Shown here piece after piece: positions 19,712-23,961 of a DNA stretch of 64,000 bases. Every line of letters begins with the position of its first letter. Within the stretch, counting starts at the first letter, position 1. The notes beneath the pieces were generated by a model. It made no database searches, was not told the origin of the DNA, and saw nothing but the letters and a program-made list of their open reading frames with translations. The stretch comes from Verrucomicrobiota bacterium. GTDB taxonomy: Bacteria; Verrucomicrobiota; Verrucomicrobiia; Limisphaerales; UBA9464. The position numbers were made by a program, and so were the translations under genes. Where the stretch lies: positions 1-64,000 of the forward strand of contig CANIZL010000013.1 in the NCBI GenBank assembly GCA_947471985.1. Reading direction: 5' to 3'.

Positions 19712-21436
19712 ATGAATGCCTTTACGCTTGTGAAGTTGGGTCGCCGGATCCGTCTCCGCGACATCCTCCCCCCGCCCTTCGTCCGCTGCCTTCTGGGCTT
19801 CCTCACCCTCAACGCGAGCACCGCGTTGTTCGGTCAGGAACCCTCCTTCCGCGAACGGGTCGGCCCCGGCGAAGTCGGCGTCGTCGCACCCGGCGATACG
19901 GTGTCGGTCCCTTATATCACGTGGGGCGCCGACCTCGTGACCTTCCAGGCCAACGGCGGACTCACCACCCGACCCGGCTCCATTTTCGCCCGGCACGGAC
20001 TCAATCTGCGATTGACCCCGGGTGACGATTTCATCCAGCAAGTGCGCGACTATCGCGCCGGTCGATCCCCTTTCCTGCGCGGCACCGTTCACATGATCGG
20101 CCTGGCCAGCGAGGTGCTGGGTTCCGATCCCCGCACGAAGGGCGTGGCCCTTCTCCAGCTCTCGTGGTCGGCCGGCGATCACCTGGTGGCGCGCGCGCCG
20201 TTGCGCACGGTCGCGGATCTGCGCGGACGCACGATTGCCCTCCAATCGGGCGGTCCCCATGTGGGTCTGTTGGACGACATCCTCCGCTCGGCCCGCCTCA
20301 CCTGGGACGACGTGAAAATCGTCTGGACGCGCGATCTCACCGGATCCGCGGAAACTCCGGCCGAACTCCTGCGCCAACGGAGTGAAATCGACGCCGCGTT
20401 CGCGATCTCGCCCGACATGGCGGGGCTCACCGGTGGTCTGCGGACCACGGGTTCCGGCGCCGAAGGCACGGTCCGTGGAGCCCACGTCCTGGTGTCCACC
20501 GCGGAGCTGAGCCGGTCGATTGCCGACATCTACGTGGTCCGTCGCGACTACTACGACACCCACAAGGAGCAGGTGACCCAATTCGTCGTGGGTTACCTCC
20601 AGGCCGCCGAGGAGGTCCAAGCGCGGCGACAGGGACGCGACACCAATGCCCTTGCCGGCCAGCGCGCGCTGCTGCTGCAAGCGCAGGAAATCTACGGCAA
20701 AACCGCACTGCCCACGCTGGCGGACGCCGCGGGTCTGCTGGCCGATGCGACGCTGGTCGGCTACCCCGGCAACGTCGCCTTTTTCACCGAAGCCGGCAAT
20801 CTCTCGGGCTTTGCCGCCCTGCAAAAATCCGCGCTCGATCTCGCCACCAGTCGGGGGTACGCACGGGAGCGCATGGGGTTGTTTCCCAGTGGACTCGATT
20901 ACACCGCCCCGGCGTTCAAAAACTTTCTGAAGCACACCGAGGCCGGCCGCACCGGACGCTTCCGCGCCGAAGCCGTGCGGGAGGAAATCGAGGCGCTCAG
21001 CGCCGGCGGCGCGCTGGATGATCGCACGATTCTCAGCTTTACGATTCACTTCGAACCCAATCAGAACGCGTTCTCCGCCGAAAACTATGGCGCGGAGTTC
21101 CGCCGGGTGGTGGAATTGGCCGACAAATACGGCAACGCCGTCGTGGCGATCCGCGGTCATGCCGATCCGACCAAGACGCTGCTGGATCTGGTTAAATCCG
21201 GACTGACGAAGGGCGTGTTGAAACGCACCGGGGCGCCGGGCAATTACAGCTACTCGTTAAATGGCGAACCACTGGATCTGCGTGCCACGGCGAAGTGGAC
21301 CCAGTTGATCAACGACGGCGCCTTCGACGGTGTGGCGGAAACGAATCCGCGGGAAACGCTGCAAGCCGCACTCAATCTCAGTCGCCAACGCGCCGAAGCC
21401 GTGCGCGAAAGCATCGTGGGCTACGCCAAAGCCTAG
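19712..21436 (+). CDS. Substrate-binding protein/OmpA fusion, amber-interrupted
   Basis: The annotated frame gives 574 residues and ends at TAG 21434-21436. The N-terminus carries a signal-like segment (FVRCLLGFLTLNASTALFG). The first two thirds resemble an NMT1/TauT-type ABC-transporter substrate-binding protein: TFQANGGLTTRPGSIFARHGLNLRL, GRTIALQSGGPHVGLLDDILRSARL and YVVRRDYYDTHKEQVTQFV. The last part is an OmpA-like peptidoglycan-binding domain (FTIHFEPNQNAF, AIRGHADPTKT and ALNLSRQRAEAVRESI) split by an insertion of about 60 residues. The sequence past the TAG continues in the same frame for 55 codons and supplies the missing end of that domain, so the full gene should run to 21604. It heads a cassette with a VWA protein and a second binding-protein/OmpA fusion. 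Confidence 0.85.
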   Translation: MNAFTLVKLGRRIRLRDILPPPFVRCLLGFLTLNASTALFGQEPSFRERVGPGEVGVVAPGDTVSVPYITWGADLVTFQANGGLTTRPGSIFARHGLNLRLTPGDDFIQQVRDYRAGRSPFLRGTVHMIGLASEVLGSDPRTKGVALLQLSWSAGDHLVARAPLRTVADLRGRTIALQSGGPHVGLLDDILRSARLTWDDVKIVWTRDLTGSAETPAELLRQRSEIDAAFAISPDMAGLTGGLRTTGSGAEGTVRGAHVLVSTAELSRSIADIYVVRRDYYDTHKEQVTQFVVGYLQAAEEVQARRQGRDTNALAGQRALLLQAQEIYGKTALPTLADAAGLLADATLVGYPGNVAFFTEAGNLSGFAALQKSALDLATSRGYARERMGLFPSGLDYTAPAFKNFLKHTEAGRTGRFRAEAVREEIEALSAGGALDDRTILSFTIHFEPNQNAFSAENYGAEFRRVVELADKYGNAVVAIRGHADPTKTLLDLVKSGLTKGVLKRTGAPGNYSYSLNGEPLDLRATAKWTQLINDGAFDGVAETNPRETLQAALNLSRQRAEAVRESIVGYAKA

Positions 21437-21604
21437 GGTCTCAACCTCGACAAAACCCAAATCCAACCCGTAGGCGTCGGCATCCGCGAACCCTTCATCG
21501 CCAAGCCGACGAACCCGGATGAAGCCCGCCAAAACATGCGCGTGGAATTCCGACTGGTGCGGGTGACCGCGGAAACGACCAAGGCCGGGGAATTCGATTT
21601 CTAA
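21437..21604 (+). pseudogene. In-frame 3' continuation of the SBP-OmpA gene
   Basis: Reading on from the TAG in the same frame gives GLNLDKTQIQPVGVGIREPF and then an NMRVEFRLVRV segment before TAA 21602-21604. This is the normal close of an OmpA-like domain: the GxD..xI..xGxG loop, then the NxRVEFR strand. One substitution, for example AAG, GAG or CAG to TAG, would explain the interruption. TAG is an ordinary terminal stop elsewhere in the window (rnhC, the LTA-synthase-like gene, the CotH gene and exoD), so genome-wide reassignment is unlikely. Confidence 0.8.
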
Positions 21605-21718
21605 CGCCCCGCCGGGTCCGGCGAGGCGCCGGGCCTCCCAACGTAACACCCCTTCGGCTCACCGCGCCGAAGTGCCCACCACATGCGTCCGCCTTGGTCC
21701 GAATCGTCCCGCCCTGCC

Positions 21719-22603
21719 ATGACTCCCCACGATCCCTCTGTGAAGACTCGATTCCGTCAGCACCTCCGCAGCGCCAGCGAGCGACTTCTCCGACCGCTAA
21801 AACGGGTCCGCGGAGGGATCGTTTGGGGCGCCGCGCTCCTCACGCTCTCCGTTCTGGCCCAGGCACCGGAGAGTGCCCGGGATCACGTGGTGATCGTCCT
21901 CGATGCCTCCGGCTCAATGGCGGGACGGATCCAGCCGGAGACTCCCGTGGACCGCATGACCGCCGCCAAAGTGGCCCTGCTCAAAGTGACGCAGAAACTC
22001 TCTACCAACACCCACATCGGTCTCCTCGTGTTCAGCGATCCCCGTTTGAAAGACGATTGGGTTTATCCGCTCGGTCCTTTGAACCTGGCACGCCTGCGGG
22101 AGGCGATCCGGCAACCCCAGCCCGGGGCCGGAACCCCTCTGGGTGCTTACCTCAAGAAAGGGGCCGACCGGCTGTTACAGGCCCGGGAGGAACACCACGG
22201 TTACGGCACCTATCGATTGCTGGTTGTTACCGACGGCGAAGCGCAGGACGCCGATCTTGTCGAACGTTACACCCCGGAAATCACCCGCCGGGGCCTCACC
22301 CTGGACGTGATCGGTGTGGCCATGGCTCAACGCCATACGTTGGCCCGCCTGGCCAGTAGTTATCGCCCCGCCAACGATTCCGCCGCCCTGGATCGGGCCG
22401 TGTCCGAAGTGCTCGCCGAGGGTGGGAATGCGCCCGGATCCCCCGCCATTCCCGCGGCGGATTTCGAACTCCTGCGCGCTCTCCCCGTGGGGTTGGCGAC
22501 TGCCGCCGTGGAGGCCCTGTCGCAGGTGGAGAACACCCCAATCGGGGACCGACGCACCGGCTCAATACCCCCGGACGGCGCCCGCCCTCGCCGCCAGCCG
22601 TGA
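21719..22603 (+). CDS. Secreted von Willebrand factor A protein
   Basis: From the ATG at 21719 the product is 294 residues. A basic N-terminus and WGAALLTLSVLAQA form a likely signal peptide. The VWA domain has the MIDAS motif DASGS in VVIVLDASGSMAGR, a conserved Thr in GAGTPLGAYL and an Asp in LLVVTDGEAQD, so metal-dependent protein binding is expected in the periplasm. The final roughly 60 residues look disordered. It follows the binding-protein/OmpA gene by 114 bp (after its full 3' end), and its TGA overlaps a GTG start codon of the next frame. A start at 21683 is also possible. Confidence 0.85.
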   Translation: MTPHDPSVKTRFRQHLRSASERLLRPLKRVRGGIVWGAALLTLSVLAQAPESARDHVVIVLDASGSMAGRIQPETPVDRMTAAKVALLKVTQKLSTNTHIGLLVFSDPRLKDDWVYPLGPLNLARLREAIRQPQPGAGTPLGAYLKKGADRLLQAREEHHGYGTYRLLVVTDGEAQDADLVERYTPEITRRGLTLDVIGVAMAQRHTLARLASSYRPANDSAALDRAVSEVLAEGGNAPGSPAIPAADFELLRALPVGLATAAVEALSQVENTPIGDRRTGSIPPDGARPRRQP

Positions 22604-22665
22604 ATCGCCCGCCGCGTGAAGCCTTCGCTGCACCCGCATTTTCTCTCCCATCGGAATCCCTTGTT

Positions 22666-23961
22666 ATGAGCGCTTCATCCGCCGGCCGTGCCCGGGGTTA
22701 TTTGATTGCCTCCGCCTTGTGGCTGGTGATCGTCGCCGTGCTGGCGCTGGCGTATCGGGGATGGGTGCAGCCCCGACGGCACCAAAATCTCACCGCCGCC
22801 ACCAGTGCCCGGCAGCCGTACCTTCAGGAGATCGCCGTGGGCGGCGACCACTTCAGTGGCTACGCCCTGCTCCGTTCCCCCGCGTTTCGCGCGGACCTGC
22901 AACGGGAAGGGCTGCGCTTGCGGTGGGTCGAAGATTCCGGCGACGTCGCCGCCCGACTGGAATCGCTGCGCACCGGTGAACTCCATCTGGCGGCAATGTC
23001 CCTCGATGCCCTGCTGACTCTCGGAGCCCGCGTCGGCTTCCCCGGCGCGATTGTTCTGGTCCTCGACATCCGCGCGGAAGGAGGGCCTGTACCCGACGTC
23101 CTAATCGCCCGCCGGGAGTTTCTCCGGGATCAGCCGGAGCGGGTCCAAGCCGTACTCGCGGCGGAAGCCCGTGCGCTTTGGCAGTATCGTCACCCACCCG
23201 CAGGCCTGCGGCAGCTGGTGCGGGAGGATGCACAGAACCACGGAACCGCCCTGACCGAGGACCAGGCCGAGAAAATCGCCGCCGGAATTCAGTGGCAAAA
23301 CGTCCAGGAAAACTACGCCTTCTTCCAGCTCCTTCCTTCCGTCGAGCGTGCCGGATTGCCGGGACTGGAAGAACTCATCGCCGATCGCACCGAGGGATTG
23401 ATGCGCACCCAAAACCTCACCGCGGATCCCCTCGCCGGCCGACGCCATTCCCTCTACTACGACCGCCCCCTCGCCGCCCTGCAAACGGCGCGCTTTCATC
23501 CGGGCCGACCCGCCGATCGTCCGCGCCCCGAGGGTGCGGCCGCAGCGTCACCACTCAGCGGCCGCAGCGAACCCGAAGCCACCGCCTTGCGCGAGGAGGA
23601 ATGGCAACAACTCCGCCCACTGGCGGAACTCCGCACCGAACCGATCGTTTTCTCCCGAGGTTCGGCCGAGCTTTCGATCGAAGGCCAGCAAACCGCCGCG
23701 GAGTGCCTGCGCAAGTTGCAGCAATTTCCCGAAGCCTATTTACGGGTTCGCGGCCACGCCCGCCCGGACGGCGATCCCGAAGCAAATCGGACACTGGCGC
23801 AAGCACGGGCCGACGCCGTGGTACACGCCCTGATCGCCGCCGGCCTCGACCCGCGCCGGGTCCATGCCGAAGTGGACGTGCCCCGCCCCAGCGGAAGCCC
23901 CAGTGCCACGATCGGCGAAGCCCAAGCGGTCAGCTTTAGCGCGGGCCAGGTACCGTATTGA
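22666..23961 (+). CDS. Shortened substrate-binding protein/OmpA fusion
   Basis: The product has 431 residues from ATG 22666 (or 453 from the GTG at 22600, which overlaps the VWA stop). One N-terminal membrane segment (GYLIASALWLVIVAVLALAY) anchors it. Residues 60-250 resemble the NMT1-like binding fold of the gene two upstream (GDHFSGYALLRSPAF, RWVEDSGDVAARLESLRTGELHLAAMSLDALL), but the central lobe is much shorter, apparently deleted around LVLDIRAEGGPVPDVLIARR. The C-terminal 110 residues are an OmpA-like domain (FSRGSAELSIEGQ, YLRVRGHARPDGDPEANRTLAQARADAVVHAL). The protein therefore probably links the inner membrane to peptidoglycan. Together with the VWA gene it forms a three-gene envelope cassette of unknown purpose. 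Confidence 0.78.
   Translation: MSASSAGRARGYLIASALWLVIVAVLALAYRGWVQPRRHQNLTAATSARQPYLQEIAVGGDHFSGYALLRSPAFRADLQREGLRLRWVEDSGDVAARLESLRTGELHLAAMSLDALLTLGARVGFPGAIVLVLDIRAEGGPVPDVLIARREFLRDQPERVQAVLAAEARALWQYRHPPAGLRQLVREDAQNHGTALTEDQAEKIAAGIQWQNVQENYAFFQLLPSVERAGLPGLEELIADRTEGLMRTQNLTADPLAGRRHSLYYDRPLAALQTARFHPGRPADRPRPEGAAAASPLSGRSEPEATALREEEWQQLRPLAELRTEPIVFSRGSAELSIEGQQTAAECLRKLQQFPEAYLRVRGHARPDGDPEANRTLAQARADAVVHALIAAGLDPRRVHAEVDVPRPSGSPSATIGEAQAVSFSAGQVPY

Follow-up and report, generated by a model that had tools for sequence, protein, structure and literature searches.

In-frame stop codons have been surveyed across bacteria under the requirement that orthologous stops occur in at least two species, and many of them were argued to belong to genes on which purifying selection still acts (PMC7918605). 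When we searched the literature for premature stops in metagenome-assembled genomes (MAGs), nothing on the point emerged. Here we analyze an in-frame TAG in a gene that fuses a substrate-binding protein (SBP) to an OmpA-like domain, in a 64,000-nucleotide stretch of a Verrucomicrobiota draft genome (the window, to which unlabelled positions refer), and ask how this locus compares with described cases.

Results

The first-pass annotation had placed a TAG at 21434-21436 in frame inside the OmpA domain of the fusion and reported an open frame of 55 codons beyond it, ending in TAA at 21602-21604, that would supply the missing end of the domain. The reading frame bears this out: it starts at ATG 19712, meets the TAG in the same frame, and continues through 55 sense codons to the TAA, for a whole gene span of 19712-21604. 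We likewise accept the proposal that one substitution accounts for the stop. The features discussed below are as follows.

19712..21436, plus strand: interrupted gene, 574 amino acids, with a signal-peptide-like start, an SsuA/NMT1-like binding domain and the start of an OmpA-like domain
21434..21436, plus strand: in-frame TAG, where every intact ortholog encodes Lys, Gln, Arg or Glu
21437..21604, plus strand: conserved tail of 55 codons that completes the OmpA-like domain, with its TAA, from the ortholog alignment
21683..22603, plus strand: VWA-domain protein, operon gene 2, without a C-terminal membrane anchor (Pfam VWA and alignment)
22600..23961, plus strand: second fusion of the binding-protein/OmpA type, short of about 102 residues near 23082/23083 (Pfam OmpA and alignment)

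The signal-peptide-like start of the interrupted frame was judged by eye, and its binding domain matches Pfam NMT1 (E=4e-5) and NCBIfam SsuA_fam (E=1.6e-9, below the cut-off of that family). Read only to the TAG, the frame matches Pfam OmpA at E=0.046 (profile positions 47-65); read across it, the match improves to E=0.00083 and 20.1 bits (profile 47-96 of 98), a score below the curated cut-off of 27.2. By eye, about 60 residues separate the GHADP and NLSRxRAEAV motifs of the domain, a longer spacing than usual. Because a random 55-codon frame would be open with P of about 0.38 at the base composition of the window, openness alone is uninformative, and we identify the tail as the real C-terminus by homology: its alignment with the C-termini of intact orthologs needs no gaps and shows 73-76% identity to the nearest. 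It is not a separate gene, as its first 33 codons contain no start codon. The observation of an in-frame TAG with a true conserved protein end behind it is therefore confirmed. The fusion gene is single-copy in the assembly (6.38 Mb, 180 contigs), and we rejected the idea that a paralog supplies its function, having found none in the source genome.

A predicted structure of the read-through frame, used only for the order of its elements (mean pLDDT 68, tail mostly below 50), places the TAG at the end of a long helix (model residues 504-532), with two strands after it. The Asp of GHADP and the Arg of NLSRxRAEAV, which we take to be the diaminopimelate contacts, both lie upstream of the TAG. The truncated form would thus keep its presumed peptidoglycan contacts but not the final strands of the OmpA fold, and a misfolded or unstable product is likely because the sheet would be incomplete.

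Searches of 58 close relatives, 320 same-order genomes and the genome_contigs collection yielded about 39 distinct near-full-length orthologs, with duplicates between collections set aside by eye. Most appear to come from Verrucomicrobiota-type MAGs, and the more distant ones from MAGs labelled Kiritimatiellales, Lentisphaerae, Planctomycetales, Sumerlaeia and Deltaproteobacteria. The annotation had proposed comparing the homologous codon in relatives, and this codon proves to be sense in every intact ortholog, although variable in kind (Lys 31, Gln 12, Arg 5 and Glu 1 across 49 aligned rows). No near-full-length ortholog carries an internal stop, either in the 320 same-order genomes or at 20 further loci from several phyla, and the TAG is private to one genome among the relatives found. 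A decaying 3' end in relatives, which the annotation had named as the mark of simple pseudogenization, is contradicted by the intact relatives, in every one of which, across several phyla, the tail is conserved to its last residues. Within the genomes compared, none of which belongs to the genus of the source, the change to TAG can be dated no more closely than to after divergence from the genus of G003 (70% identity).

The source genome's own tail has not decayed either. Nonsynonymous differences are as low downstream of the TAG as upstream, or lower. At highly conserved columns the tail shows 2 mismatches in 31 (29 kept), against 28 in 260 upstream (p=0.75), and the tail-to-upstream ratio of amino-acid differences is 0.81 for the source genome and 0.92 for other pairs; neither comparison reveals relaxed constraint downstream of the TAG. 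We found no second lesion inside the gene, across which purifying selection is still visible overall. The undecayed tail implies that the TAG is recent, or is a consensus or strain artefact absent from the organism, or is read through; through most of the history of the lineage, the frame across it was thus under normal selection.

The interrupted gene is, in relatives, the first of a contiguous series: SBP-OmpA, VWA, SBP-OmpA2, a small gene, a PspA-like gene, an SBP lipoprotein, a permease, an ATPase and an AAA gene. The fifth product is a weakly PspA/IM30-like coiled-coil protein, and the transport genes encode an ABC permease and an ABC ATPase. This nine-gene order is conserved across several phyla (window 19712-23961; L102-L106, L037, L048, L049), and a limited literature search found no description of it. 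In the source genome the series is split: contig C13 carries genes 1-3, and contig C84 carries genes 4-8, which there adjoin genes unrelated to them. On C84 (L113, 1-4299, minus strand) genes 4-8 run as gene 4, PspA-like, lipoprotein, permease and ATPase, the last as a 198-residue frame (25-621) near the contig end, only about 114 residues of which show homology. The gap of about 102 residues in gene 3, seen by comparison with five complete orthologs, is in frame and falls within the binding domain. The VWA protein (window 21683-22603; L103 3387-4271) lacks a membrane-anchor-like C-terminus in the two family members that retain the system, and this C-terminus is present in four other relatives.

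Retention of the system in the family is sparse: the PspA-like gene occurs in 2 of 50 family genomes, the source genome and G003, and the SBP-OmpA gene, sought in 34 other family genomes, occurs in G003 only. Terminal-branch ratios of the source genome to G003, limited by small alignments and, for the permease, by one too short for use, are 3.0 for SBP-OmpA2, 2.7 for gene 4 and 3.2 for the PspA-like gene, compared with about 1.8 for the interrupted gene, 1.5 for VWA, 1.4 for the lipoprotein and 1.3 for the PriA and ClpX controls. At conserved columns the interrupted gene has 28 mismatches in 260, versus 13 in 254 and 17 in 258 in its nearest orthologs (p=0.02 and 0.12). The rate excess of the interrupted gene is modest, and the excess is uneven across the operon. 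Taken with the lesions beyond the TAG, namely the gene 3 deletion, the split operon and absence from most of the family, the system looks to be under relaxed selection and disappearing from the family.

TAG otherwise behaves as a normal stop codon in this genome. The release factor 1 gene prfA is intact and scores above its curated cut-off; no tRNA with a CUA anticodon was found among 42 tRNAs, in an assembly about 96% complete, so one may be missed; and TAG terminates 81 of 484 well-supported genes (17%) in 864 kb of the source genome. On these three observations recoding is unlikely, and we reject genome-wide reassignment of UAG. The RNA downstream of the TAG folds slightly better than its shuffles (z = -1.8), an unremarkable value that gives no support to a readthrough-promoting structure. 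In a scan for base rate and coding potential over the same 864 kb (577 genes), no gene but the fusion combined homology support with a coding-like continuation beyond its stop that lacked an early start codon. Such an interruption is rare in the source genome and beyond chance, and the assembly is not error-rich, because no other homology-supported interruption was seen in the 864 kb.

Several further candidates were rejected. A TAG in the PriA gene of G003 does not make a second family case, as the PriA alignment is stop-free and the codon belongs to a short overhang that precedes the start of the match. Two weak candidates from codon statistics, C1:42695-44330 (TGA) and C2:4950-7803 (TAG), lack family support across the stop. 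A CotH-family gene (L133 2696-5542; G000:C1:42696-45542) continues in frame after a TGA for about 400 open, weakly coding-like codons without an early start, and its second part has no family match.

Discussion

We consider it probable that the TAG is a real, recent and private nonsense mutation in a dispensable system that was already damaged. It would have arisen in this lineage alone and have struck the gene at the head of an envelope binding-protein/ABC-transport operon, one that the family appears to be losing. Termination at the TAG would yield a 574-residue protein without the last strands of its OmpA-like domain, which would then probably be unable to fold or to hold peptidoglycan properly, leaving a gene most likely non-functional or strongly reduced in function. 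Loss of function is the leading reading because the system is absent from 48 of 50 family genomes, the operon is split and gene 3 carries a deletion. We infer that the organism truly carries this base, that the product is unstable and that selection on the system is relaxed. Against the preferred reading, the tail is undecayed and the gene as a whole still shows purifying selection, nothing within the gene shows lasting inactivation, a consensus base error or minority allele would look identical, and gene 1 has only a modest rate excess, with the lipoprotein gene (1.4) near the controls. We regard the observation as genuine and the biology behind it as ordinary.

The annotation had listed a nonsense mutation, a sequencing error and readthrough that makes two forms, which was the right list, although the two-form proposal has gained no positive support. 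The main rival, unlikely on balance yet to be taken seriously, is that the organism or most of its population carries a sense codon and that base-calling, polishing or strain mixing introduced the TAG. Such an artefact would fit a tail and remaining frame conserved as in a working gene, a stop unique among all orthologs and a draft of 180 contigs; 864 kb of the same genome free of other homology-supported interruptions speaks against it, and an error would leave the independent damage to the operon, the gene 3 deletion and the split, unexplained. Much less probable is a tolerated truncation, in which a stable, shorter binding protein does without firm peptidoglycan anchoring, the stop being neutral or an advantage. 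The TAG does come after both the binding domain and the Asp and Arg residues presumed to make the contacts, but the tail that would be dispensed with is kept to its end by every relative in several phyla, the stop would remove strands of the domain's sheet (in a low-confidence region of the predicted structure), and if the truncation had been settled for long the tail would be decaying, of which we see no sign.

Readthrough yielding a short form and one with a complete peptidoglycan-binding domain is more improbable again. The conserved tail favors it, as does the published argument that purifying selection still acts on the genes that hold many bacterial in-frame stops (PMC7918605); a conserved tail behind a stop is, however, also expected when a nonsense mutation is young or when the consensus is in error. 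The stop is conserved in no relative, none of the 42 tRNAs has a CUA anticodon, release factor 1 is intact, TAG is a common normal terminator, and no marked structure follows it. It is thus highly doubtful that UAG would be decoded at a useful level, so that one gene gave both a short unanchored and a long peptidoglycan-anchored binding protein, and as a decoding event the locus matters only if readthrough is shown. Under the preferred reading of a recent nonsense mutation, the locus offers a small snapshot of a multi-gene envelope system that one bacterial family seems to be in the early stages of losing.

Set beside known systems, the fusion resembles SsuA/NMT1-type substrate-binding proteins and the OmpA-like domains of Pal, YiaD and OmpA, which it joins in one chain with weak but specific profile matches, and it differs from the named subfamilies of either kind in scoring under the curated NCBIfam cut-offs; as far as tested, the fusion and its operon are uncharacterized. 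The open frame across the TAG recalls UAG reassignment and natural amber suppression, as in pyrrolysine decoding or amber suppressor tRNAs, from which the source genome departs in its intact release factor 1, its 17% of genes ending in TAG and the CUA-anticodon tRNA that was not found. Unlike the stops surveyed in at least two species, the fusion-gene TAG occurs in one genome only, and it is most like the recent nonsense alleles and nascent pseudogenes discussed with them (PMC7918605), with which it shares a single in-frame stop, a tail under purifying selection and short evolutionary persistence.
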